Shown piece by piece: positions 19,927-64,000 of a stretch of 64,000 bases of DNA; positions within the stretch are counted from its first letter, which is position 1, and each line of letters begins with the position of its first letter. This DNA is from Deltaproteobacteria bacterium. GTDB taxonomy: Bacteria; Desulfobacterota; Deferrisomatia; Deferrisomatales; JACRMM01. The notes under the pieces are model-generated. The model ran no database searches. It saw only the letters and a list, made by a program, of their open reading frames with translations, and was not told the origin of the DNA. Both the position numbers and the translations under genes were made by a program. The stretch lies in assembly GCA_016214985.1 (NCBI GenBank), contig JACRMM010000026.1, positions 1 to 64,000 of the forward strand. Reading direction: 5' to 3'.

Positions 19927-19943
19927 CGTGTCATCCGCTCCGC

Positions 19944-28022: not shown

Positions 28023-28096
28023 CCGGTCTTGACCGGCGCTTTCCCAGCGTCCCCAAGTCCCGAGTCCATTCCGGCGACCGGTTTCCCCCGCGGCCG

Positions 28097-28189
28097 CCCG
28101 CCCTCACGGGCCGTCGATCACGACCGAAATGACGCGCCCTTCCGCGACCTCTCCCTCCCCGAATCGCTCGTTGCCCTCGACGTCGGCGC
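28097..28189 (-). pseudogene. Remnant of the giant-gene 3' end (copy 2, includes the stop codon)
   Basis: About 93 bp almost identical to 36248-36340; encodes ..DVEGNERFGEGEVAEGRVISVVIDGP-stop on the minus strand. Confidence 0.9.
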
Positions 28190-31557: not shown

Positions 31558-31740
31558 CGTGCCTCCCTTCTTTCTGTGTGTGCTATCAATGCCATCATGC
31601 TGTCGGCGAGCAGCCACTGGTGACCATTCCGTCTCCCGTTCGCCTCAGAGCAGCACCTCCACGACCGACCCGTGGCCGCTGGGGAGAACACGGCAGGTCC
31701 CGTCAGATGCTGCGAAGAAGAGAATAAGGCGTGAAAGGCA

Positions 31741-31780
31741 AGAACGTCCCTCCGGTGCTCAGAACGTCCCTCCGGTGCTC
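31741..31780 (+). repeat. Perfect tandem 20-bp duplication (AGAACGTCCCTCCGGTGCTC x2)
   Basis: Direct reading at 31741-31760 and 31761-31780. Confidence 0.97.
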
Positions 31781-31880
31781 CACTCCCCGAATCGCTCGTT
31801 GCCCTCGACGTCGGCGCGGAAGCGGTAGGTCCCGGCCAGAAACCAGCACGCCTCCCTGCCCTGCTCGTCGGTCGTCAACC
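31781..31880 (-). pseudogene. Remnant of the giant-gene 3' region (copy 3, more diverged, lacks the terminal codons)
   Basis: About 100 bp; minus strand encodes TTDEQGREACWFLAGTYRFRADVEGNERFGE, matching TTDPEGRAAFWLPAGPYRFRADVGGNERFGE of the last Cna-B repeat. Confidence 0.85.
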
Positions 31881-36254: not shown

Positions 36255-39200
36255 TCACGGGCCGTCGATCACGACCGAAATGACGCGCCCTTCCGCGACC
36301 TCTCCCTCCCCGAACCGCTCGTTGCCCCCAACGTCGGCGCGGAACCGGTAGGGCCCGGCCGGAAGCCAGAACGCCGCCCTGCCCTCCGGGTCGGTCGTCG
36401 AGGAGAGCCCGAGGTAGCTCCCGGAGCCGTTGAAGACGTGCACGGGCACCCCGGCCGCGGCCATCCCCGCCACGACGACGCTCACGCGGGCCTCGCCTTC
36501 GAGGATCGTCACGGCCGGGTCCGAGCCGGTGAACGGGAGGGACCAGAAGTGCGCCGAGAGGACGTCGGCCCGCACCCGGTAGGACCCGTCCGGCAGGAGG
36601 AACGACGCCTCCCCGCTCTCGTCGGTCCGCTCGGACTCGCCCACGTATGCCCCGGTCTCAGTGAAGAGGAAGACAGGAACGTCGGGCGCCGGGATGACGG
36701 AGCCCGACCGGTCGAGGCGGACCGTGGCGGTGATGCGGCGGTGTGGGATCGGGAACGTGCAGCTCCGGTGCGTAGGCACGTCCACCGGACCGGTCCAGAA
36801 GGAGTACCCCTTCCGGTCCACCCGGAACTCATAGGAGCCGGCCGAAAGGTCGAACCCCGCCTCCCCCGCGCTGCTCGTCGTGGCGCTCGAGCCCAGGTAG
36901 ACCCCCGTAGGCCCGAAAAGGTAAGCCCGCACCTTCTCGATCGGAGCACCGGCCCCGTCCTCCACCCGCAGCGTGAAGGAGCCGCCGCCGGTCGGGATCT
37001 CGACCGCGTTCGACTCATCGGCCGCGAGCGCAACCTCGCCGCTCCAATACCGATTCCCCTGGACGTCGGCCCGGACGTTGTAGCTCTCGGCCGGAAGGAG
37101 GAAGGACACGGCGCCCGACCCGTCCGTGGTGCCGGAGAGGCCGAGGTAGGTGCCCTGCGGGTTGAAGACGTAGACAGGGACCGCTTCTACCGGTGCGGAA
37201 CCCCGGGTCACGGAGACCTCGGCCTGTGCCTCCGGGACGACGATCTCCGGGCTGCCCCCTGTGAACGGCTCTGACCAGTATTGGAACGAGAGGGTATCGG
37301 CCCGGAGCGTATAGCTCCGCACCGGCAGACGAAAGCGCACCCGGCCCGACACGTCCGTCTCCTGCGCCAACCCCAGGTAGGTCCCCGCCTCCGTGAACAG
37401 ATACACGGGAACGCCCTCCAGGGGCTGCTTCGTGCCACGGTACTCCCCGGAGACGGTGGCGGCGACGTCCTGGTGGGGGATCGTCAGGGCGAGGACGGCG
37501 TCCGCGGTGACCGTGACGTCCTCGCTCCAGAACGAATACCCCAGGTAGTCGCAGCGAACCCGGTAGGTCCCCGAAGGCAGGAGAAAGGGTACCAACCCCG
37601 AAGCATCCGCGCTTCCCGAGCGCCCGAGATACGACCCGCCCGCGCCGAAGAGGTACGCCTTGGCCCCCGCGATCGCCGTTCCCTCTCCATCGTCCAGACG
37701 GACCGTGAGGGTGCCTCCCCCGGTGTCGACGACGCACTCGTTGAGGCCGTCCGAGACTTCGATCGGTCCGCTGAGGAACTGGCTTCCCAGGAGGTCGGCG
37801 CGAAAGCGGTAGCGCTGCCCCACGGGAAGCGAGAAGGCCGCGACTCCCTCGCCGTCCGTCACGGCGTTGAGCCCGAGGTAGGACCCGGCCGCGTCGAAGA
37901 GGTACACTGTCACCCCCGCCTGTGGCGCGCCCGCCTGGACCACCCGGATCGAGGCGGTTGCCCGGGGGATGTTGACGCTCGCGCTCGTCGGCCCCGGCAG
38001 GCGAACCAGGTCGCTCCAGAACGACATGCCCAGAACGTCGATGCGAAACCGGTAGGTACCGTCCGAGAGTTGGAAGACGGCACGGCCCGCCGTGTCGGTG
38101 GCGTGGCTGACGCCCAGGTACGTTCCGGTCTCGTTGAAGAGATACGACGAGAGACCGGCCAGCGGTTGCCCGGGCCCGGCCTGGACCTCCAGCGTGAACG
38201 GTCCGCCGCCGGTGGAGATCGCCACCGGATTCCGCTGGTCCGCCGCCAGGACGGCATCCTGAAAATACTGGTGTCCTTGGACATCGGCTCGGAACCGCAA
38301 GGACCGGGCCGGAAGCCGGAAGGTCGCCGTGCCGTCCACGCCGGTGGTCGCGGAGAGGCCGAGGTAGGCCCCCGCGGGAGTGAACAGATAGACCGGGACG
38401 CCGGCCACCGGGACTTCCCCGCGGGTGACGGTCACGTCGGCGAGTGCCTCCGGGATCGGGATCTCCCGGTCCTCACCCGTGGTCGGCGTGGACCAATAGG
38501 GGAAGGAGAGGCAGTCCGCCCGGACCTTGTAGCTCTTCCGGGGCAGGCGGAAGGTCACCTGTCCGCTCGCGTCCGTGGTCTTCGCCTGCCCGAGGTAGGT
38601 GCCGGACTCGGTGTAGAGATAGGCGGTCAGACCGGGCCGGGGCTCCACGGACGTCCCGTAGATCCCCTGCACCGAGACGGTGACGTCCAGATGTGGGATG
38701 GACAGGACGGCATTCCCGTCGGAGGACACCGGGACCGCCTCGGACCAGAACGAGTAGCCGAGGGTGTCGCACCGGACCTGGTAGCTCGCGGACGGCACGT
38801 CGAAGACGACCTGGCCCCGAGCGTCCGTCTTCGCCGTGAGGCTCAGGTACGCTCCGCCAGCGCTGAAGAGATAGCAGCTCACGCCGACGAGGGGAGCGCC
38901 ACCCCCCGGGTCCACGCCCAAGGTGAGCCGGCCGCCGCCGCTGTCCACCGGGACCTCGGTGGGGGCGCCGGAGCCCACGGTGACTGAGGTGCTCCAGTAC
39001 TGGCTTCCCAGGTTGTCCGCGCGGAACTTGAAATCCCTGCCCGCGGGCAACTCGAAGCTCGCCCGTCCCTGGGCGTCGGTCGTCGCCGAGAGGCCGAGGT
39101 AGGTCCCCGCAGCGGTGAAGAGATAGACCTTGATCCCTGCCTTCGGGACGCCCCCCTGGCGCACCGAGACAGAGGCTGTCTCCTCAGCGATGTCCACGCT

Positions 39201-39440
39201 TGCACCGTAGGTGCCCGGAAGCGCCAGTGGGGCGGACCAGAACTGTCCCCCCAGGTAGTCGGCCCGGAACCGGAGTGTGCCGGTGCCGAGCAGGGACGTC
39301 GGAAACCGCGCGAGCCCCTCCCCGTCGGTCGCGGCGCTCTTGCCGGTGTAGGAACCGGCAGCCGTAAAGGCGAATACCTTCACGCCGGGTAGCGCGCGAC
39401 CCTTCGAGGTGCTCACGCGCACCGTCACTTCGGTGGGCAC
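36255..39440 (-). repeat. Thirteen Cna-B/carboxypeptidase-regulatory-like repeats at the C-terminus of the giant protein
   Basis: Consensus VPVYLFTxAGxYLGLSxTTDxxGxAxFxLPxGxYxFRADxLGxxFWS, 13 copies counted. Confidence 0.92.
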
Positions 39441-42400
39441 CGCGGTCTGGACCGTAAAGGTCACCTCGTCCCAACCGACATTGCCCACCGCGTCAACGGC
39501 CTCGACCCGCACGGTGTGAGGTCCGTCGGTCAGGTCGTGGAGTGCCTCCCCGGACGGCAGGATGAGCGGGCTCCCGTCTAGGACGACCCGTACCGTCCCG
39601 TCGGTCGCCGCATAGAGGAGGGTCTGGGTCGACGTCTGCGTCACCCCGGCCGCGGGCGAGGTGATCGATACCACGGGCGGCGCCGTGTCGACCGTGAAGG
39701 TCACCTCCGCGGAGGCCGTCCTGCCCCCGGGGCCCGTCGCCTCTATGCGCACGAGGTGCGCGCCGTCGGCGAGGGGCCCCAGGATCTGCCCCGAGAGCAC
39801 AGGAACCAGCGCATCGTCCAGCGTGACGACGGCAACGCCGTCGGTAACGGTGTAGTCCAGAACGGGGGTCGCGTCCGGCGTCGCCCCTTGCCCCGGCGAA
39901 GTGATGGTGACCGTCGGCACGAGGGGGCACGAGGACTCGTAGGCCCCCATGTCCGGAGCACACACCCCGTCGCCGTCGCCGTCCTGCGGCCTCGGCGCTC
40001 CGTTCCTGTCCGAGGCCGGGCTCCCCAACGGCGAACCGGCGTCGATGCAGGGAGAGCCCTCCAAGAGCCGAAAATCGCCGGACGAAGGGTCCGCGAACCA
40101 GGGATCGGTCGCCAGGTTGCCGGCGCCCGGCTGACCGCCACGGATGTCCGAGTAGTTGATCGAAACCAACTGGGTGCCGGCGACGAAGATCTCCTCTCCC
40201 GCGTCGTCCCACAGGATGCTGCCGGTCACCTGGGTCTCGGAGGTGCCCTGGTCGACCGCAATTCCGCTTCCCTGCTGGGCCACGTTGGCGGCCAGGGAGC
40301 AGTGGGTCAGCTGTGTCACGCCCCCGAGCACGAGCACGCCTCCGCCGAGCGCCGGGGTCGTGTTGGCCGCGATGACCGAGTTCTCAAACGTGACGGTGCC
40401 GCCGTAGTTCGTGGCGCCTCCTCCCCCGGACGCCGCAGTATTTTGCACGACCGAGCAGCGGTCGAGGACCGCACTTCCTCCGAACGTGAACACGCCGCCG
40501 GCCCAGGAACTGGCCGCGTTGCCCTCGACGGTCGAGCGCCGGATCACGGTCGGCTGACTGGAAAACACGACGGTGACTCCGCCGCCGTAGCCTGCCCGGT
40601 TCGCCGTGATGAGGGTGTCGCTGATGCTCGGCGCCGCGCCCGTCGCGTAGATCCCCCCGCCGAAACCCGACGGCCCCGCGTCGTTCCCTGTGACGACACA
40701 GTGCTCGATCCGCGGCCTGCCGTTCGATCCGACATAGATTCCCGCGCCCGACCCCTTGCCGTTGCGCAGCGTAAGCCCGCGCAGCACCGTCGGCTCCCCC
40801 TCTCCGTGGTTGAACGTCACGACACTTCCGGCTCGTCCTCCGTCGATGATCGTAGCATCGACCTGGGCGGGGTCGTGGGGATCCCTTCCGGTGAGCGTCA
40901 CCGCCTTGCCGAGGAAGTTGATGTTCGCCCCGTGGACTCCCGGCTCCACCACGATGACGTCCCCGTCCCGCGCTGCCCCGAGAGCGTCTTGGATGCCTTC
41001 CCCGGGACAGACGTTCAGGGGGTGGGCGCACGAAGCGGACCGGATCAGGAAGCGCGACTCGGCGCTCCCCGCATTGCCGGCCCGATCGACAGCCTCCACG
41101 CGCACCACGTGGGTCCCCTCGGACAGGGGGTCCAGCGGCTCGCCCGAGGCTCGGACGACCGGCACCCCGTCGAGTTCGACGACCACCGAGCCATCGCTGG
41201 CCGTGTAGCGTAGAACCGGCGTCACCTCCCAGACCCCTCCGTCCTCCGGAGCGACGAGGGTGACCGAGGGCGGCAGGGTATCCACCTCGAAGGAGACCGA
41301 CGCCACCCCGAGGACTGAGCCCGCCTCGTCCCGGACCTCCACGCTCACGGTGTGGATGCCATCGGCCAGGGGACTCAGCTCACTCCCCGACGTCGTTGCT
41401 ACCTCGACGCCGTCAACGAGCGCAACCGCGGCACCGCCAGCGGCGGCATAGCTCAGGACCGGCGCATTATCCGAGGTGACACCGGCGTCCGGAGAGGTCA
41501 GAAGGACCAACCGACGCGAGTCGACGGAGAAGGTCACCTCGGCAGCGCCGACGTTTCCGGCCGCGTCCACCGCCTCCACGCGGACGGTGTGATCCCCGTC
41601 CCCCAGGGGCCCCAGCGTCTCCCCGGACCGCACAGCCACCGCCTCTCCGTCAACCCGGACCGACACGGCACCGTCGCTGGCGTGATAGGCGAGCAGGGGC
41701 GCCTTCTGGTTCGTCAGCCCGGCAACCGGAGAGCCCAGGGTGACCGTTGGAGCCACGGTGTCCACGGTGAACGCCACCTCCGCGGCCCCCACATTGCCCG
41801 CAGCGTCCACCGCCTCCACTCGGACTCTGTGCTCGCCGTCGGCGAGGGGTCCGAGAGCCTCCCCCGATCGGGTCGACACCGGGGTCCCATCGATCCGAAC
41901 CGTCACGGCACCCTCCTCCGCCGTGTGGAAGAGTGTGGGCGCGGCCTCGTGGATCGCGCCGGCGGCGGGTGCCTGCACGCTGACCCGCGGAGGCGCTGCG
42001 TCGACCGTGAAGGACGCCTGGGCAAGCCCGACGTTTCCCGCACCGTCGACTGCCTCCACTCGAACCGCGTGGTTTCCGTCCGCAAAGGGACCCAGCACCT
42101 GCCCGGACCGGGTGGCAACCGCGACTCCGTCGACCCGGACCGTCACGACCCCCTCGCTCGCCGTGTACAGGAGAGGAAGCGTAGTCTGGTTCGTGAGGGA
42201 AGCGCTGGGAGAGCTCAGGAGCACGACGGGCGACACCGTATCCACGACGAAGCTCACGACCGCGGCGCCCACGTTGCCGGCCCCGTCCACTGCCTCCACA
42301 CGAACGCTGTGGTTCCCGTCCGCCAGGGGGCCCAGCGCGTCCCCCGATCGCGCCGGCACGCTCGCCCCGTCCACCCGGACCTCGACGCTCCCCTCGGTCA

Positions 42401-45400
42401 CCGCGTACGTGAGCCGGGGGCTCCGATCGGCGGTGAACCCGGTCTTCGGCGACGTGAGCGCCACGACCGGCGACGTCGCATCTAGGAAGACCGACGCCGC
42501 CGCCGAGCCGCAGTTGCCCGCGGCATCGCGAAACTCAACTTCGACCGCCTTCTCCCCGTCACCCCCAGGGAACGTCCAGGCCCGGGTGGTCCCGTAGGGC
42601 TCCCAGGGCGTCCACGGCCCACCGGCGTTGCGCAGCCGCATCGCGACGACCGCCCCGCCCGCGTCCGCGGCCGATAGGGTGATTGAGACGGCCGGAGACG
42701 CCGTCTGCGCGGCCCCGCCGTTTACCGACACCGATCCCACGGGTGCCTCAATGTCGATCACGTACACCTGGGCGCGCACCTCGCCCCGCGTCCCGGCGGT
42801 GTCGACGGCATAGAACCAAAGCGTCTCGGACACCGCAACCTTCACCGGCCCCGCGTATACCCGCCAGTCGCCTTCGACCGCAGCGGCGTCGGTCGTGAAG
42901 CGGATGGTCGCCGCCTCGCTCGCCTCGAGCGTGACCCATTGCTCGGCGTTGAAGATTCCCCCCGAGGGCGTCGCCACGACGGCGGGCGGCTCCCGGTCGG
43001 CCACCACCACCAGGGCCCCAGAGGCGAGCCCCCAATGACCTTGACCGTCCCCGAGCCGCGCCGCGATCCGGTTCTCCCCTTCGGCGAGCCCCCCGAGCTC
43101 GACTTCGAAGCGGCCCTCGGAGCTGACGTCAACCTGCCCTGCCGCAGCGCCATTGAGCAAGAGGCCGATGGTCGTCCCACCGGTTCCAACCCCCGAGACC
43201 ACGACGGTCGAATCGGTCACCGGGGACGACAGCGGGTCGAGCACGGGCACGCCGAAGTTTCGCACGGTGACCGGCACCGACGCCGTCGAGCGGTTTCCGG
43301 CGGCGTCCCAGGTGTCCAGGACAATCAGCCAGTCGCCGTCGAACCCAAGCGTCTCCCACTCGGCCAGGACGCCGTTAGCCACGGGGCTGGTTCCCCGCCC
43401 CAGGTCGACCGCCGACCGGGGATCATCGGCGCGGACGGCCTGGAGCCGCCAGAACCCGCCGAAGGGTTCGCCGGCCGTCCCAACCACAGACACGCTTCCG
43501 CTCACCGGCCCGTCGCCGAGCTCCAGGCTCAAGGAGCCGACGGGTGGGCTCTGGTCGACCGAGTCGTCAAGCGCCCGGAATACTTCCAGCTCTCCTCTCT
43601 CGGGTTCCCACGCGAACCACGTACCGGCGGTTCCGGTCAGCACTGTGGGCACCGACGTCAGACGCCCGCCGAAGGGACCGAGGGCCCCCATGGACCAGAG
43701 CCGCCGGCCATCCTCACCGTACTTCTCCACGCGGTACCGCCAGGTGAAGACCGAGCCGCACACGTCCTCCTGGGTGTGCCAGAACCCATCCCGGGAGAGA
43801 AGATAGAGCGATCCGGCTCCGTCGGCCGCAATTTGCTCGTAGGCAGCCGAGCCCCACCCGGCCGGGGGTTCGATGACTCGAAGGGGTGCTCCCTTGTCGG
43901 TCGTCACCACCGCGCGCCGGGCGAACCCCTCCTGGGCGCCCGCTTCCCCGTAGAGGACGAGATAGCCCCCTGGCCACGCGGCGAGCTTCTGGGGGTAGGG
44001 GAGCAGGTCCGACGGGTACGGCAGCGGAGAGGATGAAGGCTCGTCGAAGGAGTACCGCCGGAGGTCACCCCCCGCGGCGCAGGCCAGCGCGGTTCGCGAC
44101 ACGGCTGCGAACCCGTCCTCACAGCTTGTGCCCGATCGGCCAGCATCGATTCCGTCGCGCGCCTCCAGGAGGAGCCCGTCGGCCGACCAGCGGGCCAGCC
44201 CTACGGACGTCGCACCGTCCGTGCTGGAGAGCCGGAACAGCCCCACGAGCTCACCCGTCTCGTCGAATCCCAGCGCGTCGGCCCGAACGTCGGACCAGGG
44301 GGCCGCAAACGGGATCGGTGCGGTGGCCAGGGGCTGGGCTCCTGCCGAGATCACGACGCTCGTTCCCTCCGGCGAGACGAGCGCGACCCTCCCGTATCGC
44401 GAAGCTGCTGCCACCGAGCACGATCGAGGTTCGAGGTATGAGGTCTCTTCGAACTGCACCGGGCTCACCGATACGTCGCGAGCAACCACCGCGAGATTTC
44501 CCGCCTCATCGAGGGCCCACGCGCGAACGCGGAACACGTCCGGTCCGACGACCCTCGTATCCCAGGTCCCAAGATCACTCCCCTCCGGGTACCAGCCGTC
44601 TCCTCCGACCCGTGCCTGCCACTGCGGCTCCGGCGCTGCCGTGTCGAAGTACTTGATCCGAAACGCGCCGGGGTGCGCGTCGGCCACCCGGCCGAGAACA
44701 GGGACCGGACCCAGGGGAACGGCTCCCCGATCCGGCAGGCTGTCCAGCACGAGCTCGGGCGGCGTGGCGTCGAGGACGATCCGGCGGAGCACCTCGCGGA
44801 CCGCTCCAGTTCCGTACCGAACCGACAGCCGAAGAGTATGCGGGCCATCGGCGCGCTCTTCGGCCCTCCAGCCCCCGAGGATGCCGAGGGGCACGGGTTG
44901 ATCCCCCTGGGCGATCCGCTCCCAGGAGTCCGGTTCTTCGCCCTCGCCCACGGCGAGCTCCCAGGAGAGTGGCTCCTCTCCCGCCGCCCGGCCCACGATC
45001 CACGCCTGGGCTCCGAGAAGGGACCTATCCGCAGGATTCACCAGGGAGACCTCCGGGAAATCGGCTGCCAGGGCGTTCCAGTCCAAGCGGAGGACGTGGA
45101 GTTGCCAACGGTTCTGAATCCAGAGGTTTCCCGCAGCATCGAAGGCGACGCTCCTGACGTCGCCGAACTCGACCCCAGAGGAGGAGTAGGAATCGAGGAC
45201 GGTCAGCAACCGGCCGTCGGGCCGGTACAGGCTCACACCCGCTTCGGTGGACACGGCGATGTTGCCGAGCCGGTCGACGTCGACCGACCCGACGAACGCG
45301 CAGGAGGCCGCCGGAGAACCGGCGAGCTCAATCCGCGCTCGAAACACTCCGTCGCTCGAGTACACGTGGAGCCACGAACCCCGGTCGAGAAGGAGAACCC

Positions 45401-54400: not shown

Positions 54401-57400
54401 AGCGCACGAGCTCTGCCGCGAGAGGGACCGAGCCCCGGCCGGCCGCGAGCTCCGTCCAGAGGGCCGACGCACCCTGGGGTGCGGCCTCCAGTCGCCACTG
54501 GAGCAGGTTCGTGTCGCGAATCGTTCCCCGGACAACGAGCGGGCCTGTGGCGACGATTCCGTCGAGCGGAGCGAGGAGCGACACCTCGGGCACGTGGTCG
54601 TCCACCAGGACGGAATCGGAGAGAGCGCTCTCGTTTCCCACCTGGTCTACCGCTGTCACCCGGTAGACACCTCCGATCTCCGGCAAACCGTCGTCCAGGT
54701 ACCGGTGATCCGCCAACAGCCCTCCCCTCCCCGTATCGGAGAGGCGCACGAGGTCGAGCCCGAAGGACCAGCCCTTCTTGACAGCCCGGGTGATCAGGAT
54801 CCGGAAGAGGTTGCTGCGGGCCGGCACGGGGATCGTGTGGATCCGGTGCCGGAACGCGTTGTCCCACACCGTGAGGACGGTCTTCCAGGACCCGTCCGCG
54901 TAGACCTGGAGCTCGTAGTCTCGCGGCGGCGCGGCCCCGGTCCCTGCGACCCAGAAGAGCTCCACGCGGTCGATGGCCGCGTCGAAGGGAAACTGCTCCT
55001 CCCAGAAAGCGGGAAGCGTCCCACACAGCCACGGGCTGGGCGGGTCGGTGATGGGCCCCCGAGCGGCCTCCGTGCTTCCAGCCGACGCGGTCGGCACGCC
55101 CTGACGAGACACCAGGGCGTCGTTGACGAGGACACCCTGTTTGAAGACGTTGTACCCGCCGAGGTCCGGAGCGGACGGGGCGTTCCAGAAGAGCTCCACG
55201 GACGAGGAACTCGCCGCCGAGGCGACCAATCCTTCGGGCTTCGGCGGTGGGGTCGTATCGACCCTAACGGTCCGCTCGACGGCCGTCTCCCGGCCCGCCA
55301 GGTCGCGGGCCACGAGGCGCAGCCGCCACGGCCCGTCTTCGCCGGCGGGCGGATCCCACACCGCTACGACGCCCTCGTCGATCGGTGTGTCCCACGTGTC
55401 CACCACCTGGTACGAGGCCGGGCGCTCGCCGGGCCCGACCTCGAGCCGGTAGTCGAGGAGACGCTGGTCCGCCACCGTGCCCTCGATCTCCAGGTGGCGC
55501 CCGACCCGGTCGCCCTCGGCCGGCGAGGTGATCGACACGCGCGGGGCAAGATTGTCCAGGTGAACCTCTTCCGAAGGAACGCTCTCGTTGCCGGCGCCGT
55601 CGAAGGCGGTCACCCGGTAGGAGTACTCCAGCGGGCCGACCGCGTCGTCAACGAACGACGGTTCGGTGGGCGTCTCGGCCCCCGGCCCCCGGTACACGTG
55701 CACCTCCCGGATCCCGAACCGCAGCGTCTCCCGGTCCACCGACCGGGTCATGTGCACCCGAAGCCGATCGGCGCGCACGGCCGTCGGCAGGTCGACCCTC
55801 CAGGGGTTTTCTTGGAGATCGGTGACCGTCACCAATTCGACCCAGTCTTCGACCCCGGCGTCCCAACGCTGTAGGCTGAAGTCCTGGGCCGGGACGAAGG
55901 GATCCCACTCGATCGCGGCGCCAGTCACCGGGTACACCCCGTCGAAGAGCAGCCGAACCCAAGCCGGCACCTGATGGAGCGTGCTGTGCCACGCGGTGAG
56001 GGAATCACCGTCGTTCGCGCGCCAGGCCGCGTTCGTATCGCCCCCGCACGGCCACGAGCTGGCCTTGGCGGTCGCGTTGGGGGCCACGTCGCGCACGTCG
56101 AGCCGCTTGCCGTTTCGGTATACGTGGTAACCCGCGACGCCGGGCTCGGGTACGACCTGCCAATCGAGACGCACCGAGCCTCCCTGGTCGAGGGCGGCCA
56201 ACCCGGAGGGCGCTGCCGGAGCCTTCGTGTCGATGCGGACCGTGACCGTCGATTCTCCCCTCCGGTCGCCCTCGTCGAGGGCCGAGAGCCGGAACGTGAC
56301 CGGGCCCTCGGCATCGTAGGGAACCTGCCAGAAAGCGAGCGCCGTCGGGGAGAGAATGGGCAGGAGCGCGCCTTCCCGGTGGGCGAGCGTCTGCCAGTAA
56401 GCCGGGGCGTCCCCGTCTCCGACCTCCACCCGGTACTCGCGCAAGAGCGGGTCGTCCACGGTCCCCGAGATCGCCACCCAGGTGCCGGCCGGGAGCCGGA
56501 GCGCCCCGGCCACGGGCGCCGTGAGCGCCACGCGCGGCGCAGACCGGTCGACCCGGACGCGGTTGCTCTTCGGACTCTCGTTGCCGAACCGGTCCACGGC
56601 CGTAACGCGGTAGGCCGCCTCCGAGGCCACCGACAGCGGCTCGCAGTACGTGGTCCCGGAGACGAGTGCGCTCTCTTCGGGCCTTCGGAGGTGCACCTCC
56701 GCGATGGCGCCCACCGAGTAGGCGGTCGGACCCTGTTCGAGGAGGATGCGGACGCGGTCGGTGGCCACGGGCGCAAAGGGGTGTTCGGCCCTCGGCCGGA
56801 AGCCGTCGCGCACCTGGGCCACGGTCGCCCAAGCGTCGGCCTCGTCATCCCACACGGACACGGTATAGTCCCGACCCCACAGCCAGTCGTCTGGCCACCA
56901 GTCGATTCCCACGGCCGAGAGGACGAAGGGCTGCGGCAGGTCGAGGACGACCTCCACGGGCTGCGCGAAGGGCTCGGGCCGCCATCCTGTCTCGGGAAAG
57001 CCGTCGTTCATGTAGGAGACCGGGCCACTCAGGTCGAGGAGATAGGGGTTGCCGCGCCCGTCCAGCTCCACCCGCGGCGTTGCCACGGGCACGGTGATCC
57101 GGGCCAAGAACGCCACGTCGGAGACCGTGAGGGGGATGCCGTCCCGATAGATGCGATACCCCGCCAGGTCCTCCGCCGGCCCCGAGCCGTTGGCCTCGGT
57201 CGAGGACGCGGTCCACCCGAGGGTCAACCCTGACTCTGCCTCGGTCGCGGAGAGCCCGGCCGGCGCCTCCGGCGGCATCGCGTCCAACAGGAACTCCGTG
57301 CGGGTCACCTGCGTCTGCTCGAACTGATCCCGCGCCGTGAGCCGAAGCGCGAAGCGCCCCGCGCGAAGGACGGGGTACCACACCGTCATCACCTGACCCC

Positions 57401-60400
57401 AGCTCACCGGCGCCATGGACCGATGGATCTCCTCCCAGGCGTCCGGCTCCTCGCCAGTCGCGGCGATGGCCCCTACCTCGATCGCGTAGTCCTTGAGGTA
57501 GCGGTCCTGAACAAAGCCCTTCACGACCACCGCTCGCCCCACCTGCGAACCCCACTGCGGGGACAGCAGAGCGACCCGCGGTCCCCGGAGATCCACCACC
57601 GCCGCCGGGGAAGGGGCGGACCGGTTGCCCACGTCGTCCTGGGCCTCGACCGTGAGCCCGTACTCCCGCTCCTCGGAGGCGGTTTCGAAGATCGGGGTCG
57701 TCAAGAGCGTCTCCGCCAACACCTGCACCTCTGCGAGGGCGGGGTACGGCGCCGGAGGTTCCTGCACCTCCATCGGGGTGCTCTGCCCTTGACCTCCCGG
57801 CATCACGCCCTCGTCGACCACGACGCGCACGGCCCAGACCGGCGCGGCCGAGGAGAGCTCCGCCGTGACCTCCTCGTCGCCATTCTCGTCGGTGGACCAG
57901 CGGGGCACCCACAGGCCATGCGCATCCTTCGTTTCGATCCGAAAACGGCGGGCCACCATGGGCGAACGCCAGATGGTGACCACACGCCGCACCGCCTGGG
58001 GCGCCGCAAACTCCAAAGCCCACCAGCAGGGATAGGCACCCTCCGGGGGTCGCCAGTAGGAGCCGCGGTCCCCGTCGACCGCGGCTCCGGCGGACCGGTC
58101 CACGAAGCCGTCGGCGTAGGACGCCGACGCCGACACCGCGCCGGCACGCGCTACGTCGGCGAGTCCCGGCTCCGCGCCGTTCAGTACGACCCGGTAGCCG
58201 GCCAGGTCGGGCTCGGCGTTGGGCCGCCACGTGAGCCTCACCGTATTGACCGCCACGCTGGCGTCGAGCCCCACGGGAGGGGCCGGAGCCACCGTGTCGA
58301 CCCAGACCCGGACCCGTTCCTCACGACGATTGCCGATACCCCCGCCGTCCACCGCGGACAGGCGCAGCGTGACCGGTCCGTCGAGCCCCGTGGGCGGATG
58401 CCAGGTGAAGAGCCCCCCCTCGACCACGGGCTCGGCCCGGTCGTCTGCCCGCCGCCACTCGGCCGGCTCGCTTTCCACGTAGTCTCCTTCGACCCAGTCC
58501 AGCGCGTAGCCTTGGAGAAAGTCGTCCGTCACGGTTCCCGTCACGGCCACCTCGGGCCCGACTCTCTGGCCGGGTTCCGGCGCCGTCAGCCGAACCACGG
58601 GCGGCTCCAGGTCCATCAAGGTGAACGCTTCGGAGGGCTCGCTTTCGTTGCCGGCCGCGTCGACGGCCGTGACCTCATACCGCGCCGGAATCGTCGCGAG
58701 GGTTGCGTCGGCGAAGCTCGTCCCCGGGATCAGGCGACCGGGACCCGCCTCCAGGAGGCTCACCTCGCGGATCCCCACGAATTCCCGCCAGAGCCCCTCG
58801 TCGATCCGGATCCGCATCCGATCCGTCACGACGGCGGCCGGAAGTACGATCACGGAGCGCTCCTGAAGGTTGTCCTTCACCACAGCCACGTCCGTCCACG
58901 CCGCCCCGTTCCAGACCTGGATCCGGAAGTCCCGGGCCGCCACGTCGAATTGATACCAGTCGATCACGGCGGCCCTCACGCTCCTTGGGGAACGGAGGTC
59001 GAACTGGACGGTGCACGCCTCCGGTTCCCACGCCTCGTAGGGCCGGCGGATCGACCACCACGAGGTGGCCGGGCTGCCGTCGATCAGATTGGGCGGGTCG
59101 AAGGCCGCCACGTCGCGGAGGTACTCCGGGAGGTACTCGCGCAGGTTGTAGGAGTCCGACGCGGAAGGCACGGAACCGGGGGCCAAGTCCACGGCGTTCA
59201 CCGGGAGGCCGTCGCGCCAGAGCCGGTAGCCGACCACATCCGGGGAGGGCGAGGGCTGCCAGGTGACATCCACGTGATCCCTCGCCACCAGGGCCGCGGC
59301 GAGCCCGGTGGGAGGCTCCGGGGCCACGGTATCTTCGGAGCCCACGGTCGCCGGGAGCTCCGACCGGGTGTTGCCCGGGCTCGTCTGCACGATCAGCCCC
59401 CTCGGGTCGACGACCGCGACGAGGCTTCCCGGGCCCGGCGCCACTCCGATGCGCCACGGCACCGCGATGTCGGCCAGCCCGCCGGGCTCGAGGGACGCCA
59501 CCGTGGCCGACCCCACCAGTGCCCCGTCGGCCGGATCGCCCCAGTAGAACCAGACCTCCAAGGCGCCCGTCCCGCGCGTGCCCTCGAGCCGAACCTGCCC
59601 CTTGATCAGGACCTCCGCGCCGGCCGAGAGGCTTTGGGGAGCGAGCTCGAGCAAACCGTCGGCCGTGAAGAGCTTCAAGGAGCCGGAGACCAGGGACACG
59701 GTGCGGGTCCCACCTACGTCGATCGTCCCGGAGGCCCCATTGTTCGCCTCATCGGCCTCGTGGATGAGGTCTGCCGGGTCGAGCTCCACCGACCAGGTGC
59801 AGACTCCGGCCAGGGCCGACGAATCCACCGAGAAGGTCACGGTCGTCTGCTCGCCCAGGCCGAGCCCCTCGAGCAACCGCTCCTCGGCAATCACCCCGGC
59901 GCTTCCCGCCCCCTCCAGCCGGAAGCGCACCGGCACGGCAAGGGCGGCGACCGAGCCGTGATTGGACAACGTCACCGCCACCTGCCACCGGTCGCCCGGC
60001 ACGGGATCCGGGCCCGCGACCACGCCCTGGACGGCGAAACACAGATCCGCCAGCCCTGCGGAAGAGAGGGCCGACACAGCCAGGGCCGTGGTCCAGGGAT
60101 CCTCTTCCCAGGAGCCGTCGGGCAACTGGGCCTCGGCGAGGTACACGCTTGCGCGCTGCTCCACCTCAGGCAACCATCCGCCGATCCCGCGAAGCGCCGC
60201 GAGCACTTGAGCCGTTGCCGCCGGGCTGCTTCCGCCGACACCCCAACCGCCGTCGGCGTTCTGGTGAGAGAGCAACCAGTCGCGGGCGTGACCGACGCCG
60301 GCCTTCGAAGGCGGCGTCCCCGAGACGAGCAAGGCCTCCAGTATGGTTGCCGTGACCGCCGCGACCTCCTGACCCCGCTCCCCAACGCCCCAGGACCCGT

Positions 60401-60920
60401 CGGAGCTCTGCGCGCCAAGGAGGTAGTCGCGGGCCGGCGCCGAATCGGACAGGGTGTCGAAACCCGCCTGGGTCAGGGCCAGGAGCGCCAAGGCCGTGTG
60501 GTAGGGAGACGCTGCGCTGCCTGCCACGCTGCCCCATCGGCCCGAGCGGATCTTCTGCGACGTGAGAGGCGTGAGCAGCGTGGGCGGCGTCTCGGCACCG
60601 AGAATCCGCGACGCTGAAGAACCCTCGGCCAACGTCTTCCCGGATTGGATTGAGAGCCACAGCCTCGATCGTGCCGAGGCCTGCGAGCCCAGCGCCCCCA
60701 AGACGCGTGACGTGGAGCGAACTCCGGAGGGGTCGCGGACCGATCGCCACGAGCCGTCGGACCGGACGTTCGCGAGCAGCCAGCTCCTGCCCCGATCCGC
60801 CTCCTCGTCGGCGGCGGCAGGATGAGCAGGCCCAACGAGAGAGGCGACCCAACTCGCCACGAAGAGGGCCGTGAGGATGCGATTTCGACCAAGCCAGGTA
60901 TCCCTTGAGAAACCGCTCAT
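36255..60920 (-). CDS. Giant secreted multidomain mosaic protein (8,221 aa)
   Basis: Single uninterrupted ORF; N-terminal signal peptide (ALFVASWVASLVGPAHPAAA-DEE), GGGAGG-like RBS (cctccc at 60927-60932 on +); recognisable repeats throughout in one frame, so the frame is real. Confidence 0.95.
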   Translation of the reverse strand: MSGFSRDTWLGRNRILTALFVASWVASLVGPAHPAAADEEADRGRSWLLANVRSDGSWRSVRDPSGVRSTSRVLGALGSQASARSRLWLSIQSGKTLAEGSSASRILGAETPPTLLTPLTSQKIRSGRWGSVAGSAASPYHTALALLALTQAGFDTLSDSAPARDYLLGAQSSDGSWGVGERGQEVAAVTATILEALLVSGTPPSKAGVGHARDWLLSHQNADGGWGVGGSSPAATAQVLAALRGIGGWLPEVEQRASVYLAEAQLPDGSWEEDPWTTALAVSALSSAGLADLCFAVQGVVAGPDPVPGDRWQVAVTLSNHGSVAALAVPVRFRLEGAGSAGVIAEERLLEGLGLGEQTTVTFSVDSSALAGVCTWSVELDPADLIHEADEANNGASGTIDVGGTRTVSLVSGSLKLFTADGLLELAPQSLSAGAEVLIKGQVRLEGTRGTGALEVWFYWGDPADGALVGSATVASLEPGGLADIAVPWRIGVAPGPGSLVAVVDPRGLIVQTSPGNTRSELPATVGSEDTVAPEPPTGLAAALVARDHVDVTWQPSPSPDVVGYRLWRDGLPVNAVDLAPGSVPSASDSYNLREYLPEYLRDVAAFDPPNLIDGSPATSWWSIRRPYEAWEPEACTVQFDLRSPRSVRAAVIDWYQFDVAARDFRIQVWNGAAWTDVAVVKDNLQERSVIVLPAAVVTDRMRIRIDEGLWREFVGIREVSLLEAGPGRLIPGTSFADATLATIPARYEVTAVDAAGNESEPSEAFTLMDLEPPVVRLTAPEPGQRVGPEVAVTGTVTDDFLQGYALDWVEGDYVESEPAEWRRADDRAEPVVEGGLFTWHPPTGLDGPVTLRLSAVDGGGIGNRREERVRVWVDTVAPAPPVGLDASVAVNTVRLTWRPNAEPDLAGYRVVLNGAEPGLADVARAGAVSASASYADGFVDRSAGAAVDGDRGSYWRPPEGAYPCWWALEFAAPQAVRRVVTIWRSPMVARRFRIETKDAHGLWVPRWSTDENGDEEVTAELSSAAPVWAVRVVVDEGVMPGGQGQSTPMEVQEPPAPYPALAEVQVLAETLLTTPIFETASEEREYGLTVEAQDDVGNRSAPSPAAVVDLRGPRVALLSPQWGSQVGRAVVVKGFVQDRYLKDYAIEVGAIAATGEEPDAWEEIHRSMAPVSWGQVMTVWYPVLRAGRFALRLTARDQFEQTQVTRTEFLLDAMPPEAPAGLSATEAESGLTLGWTASSTEANGSGPAEDLAGYRIYRDGIPLTVSDVAFLARITVPVATPRVELDGRGNPYLLDLSGPVSYMNDGFPETGWRPEPFAQPVEVVLDLPQPFVLSAVGIDWWPDDWLWGRDYTVSVWDDEADAWATVAQVRDGFRPRAEHPFAPVATDRVRILLEQGPTAYSVGAIAEVHLRRPEESALVSGTTYCEPLSVASEAAYRVTAVDRFGNESPKSNRVRVDRSAPRVALTAPVAGALRLPAGTWVAISGTVDDPLLREYRVEVGDGDAPAYWQTLAHREGALLPILSPTALAFWQVPYDAEGPVTFRLSALDEGDRRGESTVTVRIDTKAPAAPSGLAALDQGGSVRLDWQVVPEPGVAGYHVYRNGKRLDVRDVAPNATAKASSWPCGGDTNAAWRANDGDSLTAWHSTLHQVPAWVRLLFDGVYPVTGAAIEWDPFVPAQDFSLQRWDAGVEDWVELVTVTDLQENPWRVDLPTAVRADRLRVHMTRSVDRETLRFGIREVHVYRGPGAETPTEPSFVDDAVGPLEYSYRVTAFDGAGNESVPSEEVHLDNLAPRVSITSPAEGDRVGRHLEIEGTVADQRLLDYRLEVGPGERPASYQVVDTWDTPIDEGVVAVWDPPAGEDGPWRLRLVARDLAGRETAVERTVRVDTTPPPKPEGLVASAASSSSVELFWNAPSAPDLGGYNVFKQGVLVNDALVSRQGVPTASAGSTEAARGPITDPPSPWLCGTLPAFWEEQFPFDAAIDRVELFWVAGTGAAPPRDYELQVYADGSWKTVLTVWDNAFRHRIHTIPVPARSNLFRILITRAVKKGWSFGLDLVRLSDTGRGGLLADHRYLDDGLPEIGGVYRVTAVDQVGNESALSDSVLVDDHVPEVSLLAPLDGIVATGPLVVRGTIRDTNLLQWRLEAAPQGASALWTELAAGRGSVPLAAELVRWTPPADTDRLYALRLSATDLSGKRTETTVTVYVLTRCPSLPMGLGARVGAGGDVELTWSAPLEGDVVGYNVYRNGEKLNRTNVAPLATITASSNWVDPQGWYAASKAADESLGTYWVPSPFVRPAWIAFQFPQPFRLGAVAVDWLEDPWGKRFFGKDYQIQTRDGAGWRTVVFVENNGAAHRYDGLLEGTVTDGIRILVTAGSDEDVVGVLREVRILTAEPKDTVTGTAFLDAGLTVIEGLYAVTAVDAYGRESAVATALVDALAPRLHVTTPSAGDRVPAWFEIRGSVEDGTLRGYELAWRYAGGQWLTAGRYAEPRAKGILGTLYVDDLSDREAAVELRVRAWDEAGNVAEQIVPVIVDAAPPAAPSALTATLLGNAGAHLHWEPSPSADVAGYLVARGGHALNSGNLAEEAVAAASGVYLESESHQAWAAVDGIESTSWLSDLHEGPKVLEVVFPVRKELREITVRFQAMTVLALPAPTEGTLDVWDGQDWQTVAETVGGPWHAVLPGANGGGTWYALSVVLPRAVISDRLRLRATRPPGGGAFVLGVAEVSVLGTGLVTDTEFLDASLDATETVYEVRAVDRAGNQGMAVTVAIDALPPRVAISSPASDSLSRGTVSVSATVQDGTLLWAQWSWGYGPDPVEWQPAAVSGSPPSWDRAIWRTAGLQGSVTLRLQARDEVGNESEARVTFSIDDAPPAAVSSVEPLVTAAGVALRWAPSAEADVAGYAIYRDGKRLNTADISSLGRAWASIEPTEASRAVDDDPRSEWHGAGGVGDLVWGLDFDEPVRVRGVTLTFVDPALNPLSGPRSRQGEIPPTVVAEGWTGSSWVVLATVNENRLPVRSVPFSPTALTRLRLRFPQSQGLGAAVALADVAVWPDWATGLVVEPTFLDTAVSDPAHTEHAWSLAAVDGAGNEGFHSPPIMVDTLPPRVRLAQPAEEETVGREVRVVGTVEDRFLDHWTVEVRLGTQSIVRLAQGWETPARGLLTVWNPPVQWVGTAELTLTAWDRSGSSTVTTRTVRVDTLAPSSPSGLAAQDRAGGVDLSWNRASEADLAGYFVYRDGEPLLLEWSPRAAIEASGVVDPGKACDGRLDTAAFVLPAEDAWWGFVYDTEQAFAGLEIRPEKLGAPVVVEVRRAGQWVAAPSLSASPGGGGRRRFEPPVLGTGIRLRWAGAYVRLEEVTVLLARFLAPSQSNTVDGEVAGWCRPEAGYQVAAVDGLGNVSAPSVETSLDRSPPLVAIRSPSEGSTLGGRVEVVGTVRDRFLRRWVLEVSVAGGQWLSLASGVTGTQQGRLAEWDPPVDVPATALLRLTAEDTSGQVNRVEVPLRLERAALTAPRGLRGEMGPFVSVLSWVPGPGAPPAAYRIYRDGEVLAETAGTELSQPVQDLCGPVIGWVDEVSFVNTAPGVLSVEILKSGVEAGRCLYEVRAVDGEGRESPPAVRFDRDGPLVLLDHGIFRVYPVALSSDGSNLWVLRTGGEVQRLGADGTAAATLSIAAVDRLDDGMDLVVSGDRIWVAGTSRLRAYSFLGAPLTPAVAIPPSYRTRVAALPGGGVAAWTDRSLLCLDETGTVTRTLPRLDSGFDVAVDGQGHFLVLNASGGVSVFDSDGSPFAEVPTPFVSPPDPWSFSPGAFLAVDDRGFIAVSGGRGVDARIVLLNPSGGVIARIDGSVTHPLDDCAGGMAFLGTRLAAIGGWPPHLDDFLVDPGRLPVGAAVSEIVSPSSGAALRNGFVVTGTVSAESPSRWSLDLGEGESPAAWTRVAEGETGVPFGALGSVDTRRFGDGLWTLRLTSRLSDAMAPESRVAVRFDNTAPAISILAPSEMAAVSGAVSVRAVATDADLAWYRVSARQAGTDKGSEIAAGTGPTPVSIECSWNAAGVGSGFYEIVVEVGDRAGNRTESVVRVFVGSVSVQAPLGAGSIDGARMVARLAGGRWVAGEPEAARITILDPSGAWIARVAADDRGALFGSGAIVALAALPDGGFAVATSSGRISLFDADGLALGGFQAPGGPRIAVGGMAVDALGRIVLAGGPRGYGLFDTAGESLFPAGSAGSQPSGIGAVVGAAADGIGDVYLLVEGGSALRVYDRWGQLLEIRPVTGGPARALAVDEDGRMLLAYDDRVELLAPEGSRLSEWTTRGALGGLGSGQVLGVWLGSGAAAVIDAGAGVPLLFGLSSVIPETPERSAEVRHPVEGELVPARFPVSGTAAGPGVTGYRVEVGEGRDPEAWTVVIQGTRAASGAVLGIADLSSISSGDVTVRLVTQGGQGAAESRVHCVVDAEAPSAAILSPAPYGLLREGERAHVQVAGGEDTLYSVSLERDDLPWVRKVLASGAGPRTDLSVGWNPSDFPPGPYRLVVYAEDAAGNRTRADEVLSTGRVRYAGIRTPVLLPGEILQRIESDPEGFLGITDRRVLLIGPSGDVVREALPGMTAAERADFVNVRACSEGRAFLFTSAPQLRIYDREGRWLRSVELKGLKRPVFFAFDPGGRIVVAGMDGTSLYPAEGGDPLPWIGIRYDGRYTYQGPTGADRYGNGYSLVSRGDTPADVEIRDPLGRSLLRWESCHHGGAGNLSVDAWGHILASATWAGLSFWTPDGTFLARTSGPGYGAAEGWLSSGFTATWGPDGLVGVASDNRLLIFDARELYPDSGAPSALVVLPSDRPDLSKPIVIFGSAAGGGVYTLTVEGPAGALTVAQGPASVVDGMLGVVDATEWDEGAYTVRLSVAHTAGVVEDHREFVVDRSLPTVAISSPVGFTGVTAPTPVIGRVLDANAADWVLAIGRGTSWQTLASGQGVVDGELGRLDPAQLGPGAYVLRLTGSDRAGYSSSHEVSVSVGPITLGNVLPVGSSPWYPAGFVALPDGSGVCRMRDNWERSPPDLVRMELSTGATLGRVGQPPAAGATAAMLARAPSGAAVLWQGDRRWWVQLLSGDGSVARTVEIPWGSGPQRVRRPVALVVGDDEVLVLEASQVKVFDLDGNHRTTWGELGDDPGEFASLKAGALDRFGRVLLLDRGSWLHVYSSDGVFRARIELAGSPAASCAFVGSVDVDRLGNIAVSTEAGVSLYRPDGRLLTVLDSYSSSGVEFGDVRSVAFDAAGNLWIQNRWQLHVLRLDWNALAADFPEVSLVNPADRSLLGAQAWIVGRAAGEEPLSWELAVGEGEEPDSWERIAQGDQPVPLGILGGWRAEERADGPHTLRLSVRYGTGAVREVLRRIVLDATPPELVLDSLPDRGAVPLGPVPVLGRVADAHPGAFRIKYFDTAAPEPQWQARVGGDGWYPEGSDLGTWDTRVVGPDVFRVRAWALDEAGNLAVVARDVSVSPVQFEETSYLEPRSCSVAAASRYGRVALVSPEGTSVVISAGAQPLATAPIPFAAPWSDVRADALGFDETGELVGLFRLSSTDGATSVGLARWSADGLLLEARDGIDAGRSGTSCEDGFAAVSRTALACAAGGDLRRYSFDEPSSSPLPYPSDLLPYPQKLAAWPGGYLVLYGEAGAQEGFARRAVVTTDKGAPLRVIEPPAGWGSAAYEQIAADGAGSLYLLSRDGFWHTQEDVCGSVFTWRYRVEKYGEDGRRLWSMGALGPFGGRLTSVPTVLTGTAGTWFAWEPERGELEVFRALDDSVDQSPPVGSLSLELGDGPVSGSVSVVGTAGEPFGGFWRLQAVRADDPRSAVDLGRGTSPVANGVLAEWETLGFDGDWLIVLDTWDAAGNRSTASVPVTVRNFGVPVLDPLSSPVTDSTVVVSGVGTGGTTIGLLLNGAAAGQVDVSSEGRFEVELGGLAEGENRIAARLGDGQGHWGLASGALVVVADREPPAVVATPSGGIFNAEQWVTLEASEAATIRFTTDAAAVEGDWRVYAGPVKVAVSETLWFYAVDTAGTRGEVRAQVYVIDIEAPVGSVSVNGGAAQTASPAVSITLSAADAGGAVVAMRLRNAGGPWTPWEPYGTTRAWTFPGGDGEKAVEVEFRDAAGNCGSAAASVFLDATSPVVALTSPKTGFTADRSPRLTYAVTEGSVEVRVDGASVPARSGDALGPLADGNHSVRVEAVDGAGNVGAAVVSFVVDTVSPVVLLSSPSASLTNQTTLPLLYTASEGVVTVRVDGVAVATRSGQVLGPFADGNHAVRVEAVDGAGNVGLAQASFTVDAAPPRVSVQAPAAGAIHEAAPTLFHTAEEGAVTVRIDGTPVSTRSGEALGPLADGEHRVRVEAVDAAGNVGAAEVAFTVDTVAPTVTLGSPVAGLTNQKAPLLAYHASDGAVSVRVDGEAVAVRSGETLGPLGDGDHTVRVEAVDAAGNVGAAEVTFSVDSRRLVLLTSPDAGVTSDNAPVLSYAAAGGAAVALVDGVEVATTSGSELSPLADGIHTVSVEVRDEAGSVLGVASVSFEVDTLPPSVTLVAPEDGGVWEVTPVLRYTASDGSVVVELDGVPVVRASGEPLDPLSEGTHVVRVEAVDRAGNAGSAESRFLIRSASCAHPLNVCPGEGIQDALGAARDGDVIVVEPGVHGANINFLGKAVTLTGRDPHDPAQVDATIIDGGRAGSVVTFNHGEGEPTVLRGLTLRNGKGSGAGIYVGSNGRPRIEHCVVTGNDAGPSGFGGGIYATGAAPSISDTLITANRAGYGGGVTVVFSSQPTVIRRSTVEGNAASSWAGGVFTFGGSAVLDRCSVVQNTAASGGGGATNYGGTVTFENSVIAANTTPALGGGVLVLGGVTQLTHCSLAANVAQQGSGIAVDQGTSETQVTGSILWDDAGEEIFVAGTQLVSINYSDIRGGQPGAGNLATDPWFADPSSGDFRLLEGSPCIDAGSPLGSPASDRNGAPRPQDGDGDGVCAPDMGAYESSCPLVPTVTITSPGQGATPDATPVLDYTVTDGVAVVTLDDALVPVLSGQILGPLADGAHLVRIEATGPGGRTASAEVTFTVDTAPPVVSITSPAAGVTQTSTQTLLYAATDGTVRVVLDGSPLILPSGEALHDLTDGPHTVRVEAVDAVGNVGWDEVTFTVQTAVPTEVTVRVSTSKGRALPGVKVFAFTAAGSYTGKSAATDGEGLARFPTSLLGTGTLRFRADYLGGQFWSAPLALPGTYGASVDIAEETASVSVRQGGVPKAGIKVYLFTAAGTYLGLSATTDAQGRASFELPAGRDFKFRADNLGSQYWSTSVTVGSGAPTEVPVDSGGGRLTLGVDPGGGAPLVGVSCYLFSAGGAYLSLTAKTDARGQVVFDVPSASYQVRCDTLGYSFWSEAVPVSSDGNAVLSIPHLDVTVSVQGIYGTSVEPRPGLTAYLYTESGTYLGQAKTTDASGQVTFRLPRKSYKVRADCLSFPYWSTPTTGEDREIPIPEALADVTVTRGEVPVAGVPVYLFTPAGAYLGLSATTGVDGTATFRLPARSLRFRADVQGHQYFQDAVLAADQRNPVAISTGGGPFTLEVQAGPGQPLAGLSSYLFNETGTYLGVSHATDTAGRAVFQLSDGTYRFRIDVLGMSFWSDLVRLPGPTSASVNIPRATASIRVVQAGAPQAGVTVYLFDAAGSYLGLNAVTDGEGVAAFSLPVGQRYRFRADLLGSQFLSGPIEVSDGLNECVVDTGGGTLTVRLDDGEGTAIAGAKAYLFGAGGSYLGRSGSADASGLVPFLLPSGTYRVRCDYLGYSFWSEDVTVTADAVLALTIPHQDVAATVSGEYRGTKQPLEGVPVYLFTEAGTYLGLAQETDVSGRVRFRLPVRSYTLRADTLSFQYWSEPFTGGSPEIVVPEAQAEVSVTRGSAPVEAVPVYVFNPQGTYLGLSGTTDGSGAVSFLLPAESYNVRADVQGNRYWSGEVALAADESNAVEIPTGGGSFTLRVEDGAGAPIEKVRAYLFGPTGVYLGSSATTSSAGEAGFDLSAGSYEFRVDRKGYSFWTGPVDVPTHRSCTFPIPHRRITATVRLDRSGSVIPAPDVPVFLFTETGAYVGESERTDESGEASFLLPDGSYRVRADVLSAHFWSLPFTGSDPAVTILEGEARVSVVVAGMAAAGVPVHVFNGSGSYLGLSSTTDPEGRAAFWLPAGPYRFRADVGGNERFGEGEVAEGRVISVVIDGP
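39430..39910 (-). repeat. Two further Ig-like repeats between the beta-helix and the Cna-B array
   Basis: PTVTITSPGQGATPDATPVLDYTVTDG.. and PPVVSITSPAAGVTQTSTQTLLYAATDG..; equivalent positions 240 bp apart (39715 and 39475). Confidence 0.88.
39930..41040 (-). other. Right-handed parallel beta-helix (choice-of-anchor Q-like) domain within the giant protein
   Basis: GEGIQDALGAARDGDVIVVEPGVHGANINFLGKAVTLTGRD..GIYVGSNGRPRIEHCVVTGND..GGIYATGAAPSISDTLITANRAGYGGGV..LLEGSPCIDAGSP..DMGAYES. Confidence 0.85.
41040..42480 (-). repeat. Six tandem Ig-like repeats in exact 240-bp register
   Basis: Equivalent motif (ccgacgttt/cccacattg-like) falls at 42268, 42028, 41788, 41548, 41308 and 41068. Confidence 0.93.
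43550..50070 (-). repeat. Five superunits of about 1.4 kb: beta-propeller/NHL-like block plus two Ig-like domains
   Basis: Propeller-like blocks begin near 50060, 48690, 47290, 45930 and 44460; each is followed by a pair of Ig-like domains (e.g. VTGTVSAESPSRWSLDLGEGESPAAWTRVAEG). Confidence 0.78.
50700..59330 (-). repeat. About nine repeated units of FnIII with inserted discoidin-like domain plus an Ig-like domain
   Basis: Recurring order: VxLxWxPSxxxDVAGYxVYRDGxxLN - [ASSxxxx..AxDGxxxTxWxx..WxxxxFxxPxxVxxVxIxW..DYxxQxWDGxxWxTVxxVxxN..RxR] - xxFLDxxLxxxxxYxVTAVDxxGNES - PRVxxxSPxxGxxVGxxVxVxGTVxDxxLxxYxLEVG. Confidence 0.82.
60050..60830 (-). other. N-terminal alpha/alpha-toroid (prenyltransferase/squalene-oxidase repeat-like) domain of the giant protein
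   Basis: LLGAQSSDGSWGVGERGQEVAAVTATILEALL..WLLSHQNADGGWGVGGSSPAATAQVLAAL..LAEAQLPDGSWEEDPWTTALAVSAL. Confidence 0.8.
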
Positions 60921-63998: not shown

Positions 63999-64000
63999 TC

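Follow-up and report, generated by a model that had tools for sequence, protein, structure and literature searches.

The 64,000-nt stretch of DNA analysed here (hereafter, the window) carries a giant ORF encoding a secreted mosaic of domains, with the genes of a 331-aa secreted protein and of a 2008-aa transglutaminase-fold protein, its predicted partner, lying upstream on the same strand (Table 1). The giant protein has a calculated mass of 861 kDa, a pI of 4.7, 39 Cys and 62 Lys. Its gene starts with an ATG at 60920, contains no internal stop and no N, and is preceded at normal spacing by a strong Shine-Dalgarno sequence (coding strand GGCGGGAGGTTTCCC-ATG, containing GGGAGG). The order GC3>GC1>GC2 held in 80 of 80 sliding 900-nt windows along the ORF, indicating that there is no local frame change, and the chance of 8221 stop-free codons at the ORF's own base composition is ~10^-68. 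Repeat collapse during assembly is unlikely because no 20-mer occurs twice within the ORF and its closest internal repeats are merely 73-78% alike. The single uninterrupted 24.7-kb frame proposed by an earlier, sequence-only reading of this DNA hence stands, with a stop-free frame, a Shine-Dalgarno sequence and a coding signature over its full length, and on these signals we consider the ORF confirmed as real. It is extremely improbable that it represents an assembly artefact or a decaying gene: although the assembly is a draft of 72 contigs and fragments of the 3' end of the gene occur close by, the frame is unbroken, the coding signature runs throughout without a repeated 20-mer, a Shine-Dalgarno sequence and a signal peptide are present, and the C-terminus is under purifying selection (see below). 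The gene also lies well inside its contig (G000:C16, 74,810 bases).

Table 1 Coordinates of the giant ORF, its segments and its upstream neighbours in the window.
Feature	Residues (aa)	Position	Strand	Basis or remark
Giant ORF	1-8221	36255..60920	-	unbroken frame, coding signature, no repeated 20-mer
Sec-type signal peptide	1-38	60807..60920	-	sequence reading; no lipobox
Alpha/alpha-toroid, squalene-cyclase-like	39-293	60042..60806	-	Pfam SQHop_cyclase_C, PDB matches, motifs
Two CARDB domains	294-529	59334..60041	-	Pfam
Nine tandem units, each an FnIII with inserted CBM32/discoidin, plus Ig	530-3505	50406..59333	-	alignment, AlphaFold, PDB fold match
Tenth FnIII, short insert not recognised as discoidin	3506-3625	50046..50405	-	unit comparison
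Five superunits, each an NHL-like beta-propeller plus two Ig (bounds approximate)	3626-5960	43041..50045	-	profile match
Ig-type repeats of ~80 aa (Big_13, CHB_HEX_C_1)	5961-6640	41001..43040	-	Pfam, repeat comparison
Right-handed beta-helix, choice-of-anchor Q domain at end	6641-6998	39927..41000	-	Pfam Beta_helix
Two Ig repeats	6999-7164	39429..39926	-	windowed BLAST
13 CnaB-like repeats of ~82 aa, to the last residue	7165-8221	36258..39428	-	alignment, PDB match, sister-genus conservation
331-aa secreted protein, between partner and giant genes		61202..62197	-	no Pfam match
3' part of gene for 2008-aa secreted transglutaminase-fold protein		62184..64000	-	continues past the window to contig position 68207

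These scraps, all from the extreme 3' end of the giant gene, lie downstream of it on the same strand (28083-28189, 31778-31876 and 25109-25149, all -), with a further one on a separate contig (G000:C21:18691-18843; L072). The four show 94%, 87%, 83% and 85% DNA identity to the giant gene, and one takes in the stop codon and ~20 bases past it. They are probably remnants of lost paralogues. We rejected the idea that they are template repeats of a diversity-generating retroelement: their truncation points differ, mismatches in the 94% scrap are mixed in kind and not adenine-only, and no reverse transcriptase was seen among the scanned neighbouring ORFs. Nor do they resemble Rhs-like orphan C-terminal tips, as they bear the giant gene's own end without new tips. 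The lower-GC stretch that holds scraps also holds a PIN-domain toxin with a FitA-like antitoxin (30909-31617, -) and a second, lone PIN protein (30466-30873, +). Elsewhere in the window, heterodisulfide-reductase-like HdrA/FlpD, CCG and 4Fe-4S genes beside pyruvate:ferredoxin oxidoreductase subunits (15404-22060, -) form an anaerobic electron-transfer cluster.

The giant protein opens with the signal peptide MSGFSRDTWLGRNRILTALFVASWVASLVGPAHPAAA-D, as read from the sequence. In the toroid that follows, the SQHop_cyclase_C match covers aa 158-278, the PDB matches are to squalene-hopene cyclase and four QW-type motifs are found; the DxDD motif of class II terpene cyclases is absent from aa 1-300, as is the CGEQ thioester of the alpha-2-macroglobulin TED from the toroid. 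The nine units behind the CARDB domains, each ~330 aa long, are nested. The FnIII of each unit opens with strands A-B-C ('W.....DVAGYxVYRDG'), a whole CBM32/discoidin domain is interposed, and the FnIII then picks up again ('YxVTAVDxxGNES') before an Ig domain. AlphaFold modelling of segments, suggested as a check on the earlier reading, was run on the nine-unit alignment and returned the same nested strand order at a pLDDT of 89. The insert belongs to the CBM32/discoidin fold both by its Pfam F5/8 C match (1e-47, accompanied by FnIII and Big_7 matches) and by superposition on chitosan-binding CBM32 modules (4zxe, TM 0.88, rmsd 1.9 A). Since the discoidin-bearing units share only 23-33% identity, glycan binding may have been lost in some of the nine predicted CBM32-type units.

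The superunit profile matches NHL propeller structures (6d69 at 1.8e-12; TRIM2/3/71), and it is on this match that the propeller assignment rests, not on an AlphaFold model of one superunit that is weak in the propeller (pLDDT 57). Domain searches of the giant also returned bMG3/CarbopepD_reg-like matches; no glycosidase, cohesin or dockerin was found in the ORF by Pfam. The C-terminal array matches a collagen-adhesion protein (PDB 6fwv) at 1e-5, and there is no conserved column of isopeptide-forming Lys among its 13 repeats (62 Lys in 8221 aa). Overall, the domain order given by the sequence-only reading is borne out for the Sec-type signal peptide, the toroid and CARDB-like domains (now a toroid without the cyclase DxDD and two CARDBs), the propeller/Ig superunits (five, NHL-like), the Ig repeats, the beta-helix and the Cna-B-like repeats, which number 13 up to the stop. 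Its FnIII/discoidin units contain both domains as proposed, although these do not stand side by side, the discoidin sitting inside the FnIII.

How such a protein leaves the cell and is held there was said to be unexplained, given the lack of a sortase motif, C-terminal TM helix or lipobox. All three are indeed absent: Cys first appears at residue 294, no TM helix was found at the C-terminus, and the lone LPxTG-like sequence (LPFTG, 8128) falls within a repeat that no TM follows. The giant therefore lacks both the LPxTG, TM and basic tail and the isopeptide Lys of sortase-anchored MSCRAMM/CnaB proteins. RTX nonapeptides are likewise missing, GGxGxD occurring just once in the 8221 aa. A type II secretion operon, GspD-E-F-G, is encoded in the same genome (its secretin on C61; GspG prepilin 'GFTLIELMVVLVILGLLAAIVMPRLFG'), and a PilM-N-O-like cluster adds another secretin. 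These genes indicate that the cell is diderm and make type II secretion a candidate export route for the giant, which carries the Sec signal expected of a type II substrate, though a substrate of 860 kDa would be exceptional. Export of the giant now has this candidate; no known anchor was found.

No full-length homologue of the giant was recovered when four segments were run against 59 relatives and three profiles against 396 genomes of the phylum. The homologues with the same domain order that the sequence-only reading had proposed to look for are hence lacking at full length, but both ends of the protein are conserved. At the C-terminal end, a contig-truncated ORF of the sister genus (G001:C25) ends in the same CnaB-like array, likewise without an anchor. 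The repeat order is kept over ~890 aligned codons at 51% identity, with a few repeats missing, and dN/dS is about 0.5, which points to purifying selection on the giant's C-terminus. Across 85,462 genomes the array occurs at 43 loci, chiefly in Desulfobacterota (Desulfosarcina cetonica, Desulfatitalea, Olavius delta symbionts, Smithella and others), and also in Thiomargarita and one Nitrospirae MAG. Within the giant's own phylum, 10 of 396 genomes carry it. Complete array proteins are mostly about 2000-2500 aa with a different N-terminal domain; others fuse the array to RHS/YD segments. Those of Desulfobacterota (Desulfosarcina cetonica, Desulfatitalea) share with the giant the C-terminal repeat to the stop at ~37-46% identity, but no toroid and no nested FnIII[discoidin] was seen in them. 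Their neighbours differ as well, a transglutaminase-like gene with intact Cys standing beside them and one that has lost it beside the giant. At 15 of the 29 Desulfobacterota loci with enough upstream DNA to be testable (flanks drawn from L112-L129, L135, L136, L145, L191 and L192), this Cys-intact gene (~300 aa; GDCTE...HNWAEF...ADPQ) immediately precedes the gene of the ~2000-2500-aa array protein; it also stands upstream of an RHS giant (G003; L083). Genomes of the same order further hold 3000-4400-aa Ig/FnIII ORFs with RHS repeats, RCC1 propellers or pretoxin HINT domains (G001:C13, L080; G003:C5, L083; G010:C27, L082; G006:C135, L085). One of them, the 4373-aa ORF of G001:C13, was tried as the N-terminal half of an orthologue in the sister genus and rejected, being an RCC1/RHS protein.

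At the N-terminal end, we defined toroid-CARDB secreted giants by a signal peptide, then a toroid, then at least two CARDB domains, an arrangement that the giant shows with its two CARDBs. With a profile search (E<1e-20), this toroid-CARDB start was recovered from 21 of the phylum's 396 genomes. It is conserved end to end across other families at 27-31% identity, the giant's own head aligning with a 5920-aa ORF (G280; 27% over 510 aa), the longest toroid-CARDB ORF elsewhere in the phylum, and with a Nitrospirae MAG (30% over ~490 aa). The 5920-aa protein has fused propellers, many Ig/FnIII domains and one FnIII with a discoidin at the same insertion point. These relatives (G280; L190; G260, G080, G140, G112, G044) have the signal peptide, toroid and CARDBs of the giant and, in most cases, a transglutaminase-fold neighbour, but nine nested units, five NHL superunits and a CnaB-like tail are each absent from all of them, and every one is shorter than the giant to the extent that its contig covers it.

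The pairing of toroid-CARDB and transglutaminase-fold genes is new and had been overlooked by the sequence-only reading. In the window, the 2008-aa partner combines a transglutaminase core (PF01841; 3.7e-11), in which the catalytic Cys is replaced by Asp, with a C-terminal alpha/beta-hydrolase. The toroid-CARDB gene of the Nitrospirae MAG is likewise preceded by a transglutaminase-fold homologue (26.5% identity to the window partner over 675 aa, E ~1e-65) and by a 338-aa secreted protein. Having been seen in these two, the linkage was checked as a prediction in further toroid-CARDB loci, and a transglutaminase-fold gene was present at 8 of 10 testable loci (window included); several of these eight come from two families and are not independent. 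Upstream placement was seen in G260, in both copies of G318 and, at a distance of about 6 kb, in G306, whereas in G080, G140 and G112 the gene is found immediately downstream, by about 130-750 nt; none was found in the sequence covered at the G044 and G331 loci, and G280 and G213, cut by contig ends, fall outside the ten. No strong match (>100 bits) to the partner family was seen in roughly 95 loci other than those of the toroid. In G318:C154 (L214), the gene pair is tandemly duplicated, with one toroid copy cut short.

All nine linked transglutaminase cores have lost the catalytic Cys to Asp or Ala (GNDFDQ, GNAFDT) and keep the His. They should therefore be inactive as transglutaminases or cysteine proteases. 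The partner C-termini vary, from the alpha/beta-hydrolase of the window to NlpC/P60 (Nitrospirae, G318), RHS (G080) and RHS with a Tle3-like lipase (G112). In G260 and G318, small secreted propellers of PD40/YNCE type are encoded between the partner and toroid-CARDB genes, and the intermediate Nitrospirae gene reads as an NHL-type propeller, with no Pfam match. The giant chains of the window and of G280 themselves contain propellers, and this fusion is a hint that the parts work together.

Literature searches found no published account of the giant's architecture or of the gene pair. Extracellular surface proteins of >5000 aa are a recognised bacterial class (PMC11573180); in the available portion of that account no architecture combining a toroid, nested FnIII[CBM32] and NHL propellers is named. 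CARDB, Ig and fibronectin domains are known from putative aggregation proteins and adhesins of syntrophic sulfate reducers (PMC10553843), for which the portion available describes neither a giant mosaic nor a transglutaminase partner. A parallel in gene arrangement is the Lap/Dvh system, in which a giant repeat adhesin is under the control of, and genetically linked to, a transglutaminase-fold protease, LapG/DvhG (PMC13090378). Export there is by type I secretion, a retention module is present and the BTLCP protease is active, whereas the giant has a Sec signal and a partner with a PF01841 core and a lost Cys; neither the retention module and RTX repeats of a Lap-type adhesin nor a Cys-His-Asp protease next door was found.

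We propose that the giant is a multivalent extracellular adhesin or scaffold working with the transglutaminase-fold partner, a reading that in our judgement stands about an even chance. It draws on the domain content and folds, the toroid without DxDD, the conservation of both ends, the linkage at 8 of 10 loci and the presence of a type II system. The protein would be a Sec-exported extracellular fibre of roughly 860 kDa and about 70 domains, whose FnIII/Ig/CnaB chain would form a stalk of ~200-300 nm (about 55 beta-sandwich domains at ~4 nm, plus the larger modules). The stalk would hold nine sugar-binding-type domains sideways and five propellers as platforms for protein or glycan contacts. 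The protein would thus serve a diderm bacterium as a multivalent adhesin or matrix scaffold, its export going by way of Sec and perhaps the type II system. It would act with the upstream-encoded protein, which has lost its own active site and carries an alpha/beta-hydrolase, through contact with the conserved toroid-CARDB head; the separate small propellers of some relatives would here be fused into the chain. The giant surface adhesin, matrix or sheath protein of the sequence-only reading fits the Sec signal, the nine CBM32-like folds, the stalk repeats and the lack of a visible catalytic motif, while binding and location are still inferred.

Several other roles must be weighed against this. 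The giant might dock, display or restrain a hydrolase partner with a swappable tail at the surface, the pair serving antagonism or matrix remodelling and not adhesion as such. The gene linkage with its variable C-terminal domains, the Cys loss in all nine cores and the occurrence in the same order of RHS and PT-HINT giants that consist of related Ig/FnIII modules speak for it; however, no immunity-like gene was recognised, and the giant has no RHS, HINT (by Pfam) or variable tip, its C-terminus being conserved in the sister genus, so that we regard this role as possible but doubtful. Being built of modules related to the giant's own, those RHS or pretoxin proteins make a part in antagonism conceivable for it. 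We hold a broader idea with similar reserve, namely that the loci encode an undescribed extracellular system in which a pseudo-transglutaminase trunk with a swappable enzyme tail and small propellers would both be scaffolded by a toroid-CARDB giant, the propellers and nine FnIII[CBM32] arms being fused in the window.

A cellulosome-like scaffold for harvesting polysaccharides, with the CBM32 domains and propellers holding glycans for degradation and uptake, would suit nine CBM32-type domains whose closest structures include a chitosan-binding module, but it is unlikely, as neither the ORF (by Pfam) nor the window genes tested contain a glycosidase, cohesin or dockerin. A Lap-like cycle, in which the transglutaminase-fold neighbour cuts or cross-links the giant for release or fixing, is less likely still. 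The neighbour's position beside a giant surface protein and the Cys-intact gene just upstream of about half of the testable Desulfobacterota array genes are in its favour, yet Asp stands for the catalytic Cys in the window partner, and Asp or Ala in every linked copy, and the giant has no retention module or type I signal.

Although uncultured bacteria commonly encode giant extracellular proteins, for few of these is there a partner or a role that can be tested. That toroid-CARDB giants recur beside an inactivated transglutaminase-fold protein with changing enzyme tails is a first handle on them, offering two proteins, a predicted interaction and expressible fragments. The FnIII with a CBM32 insert, repeated nine times, represents a simple way, found in nature, of suspending binding domains from a stalk.
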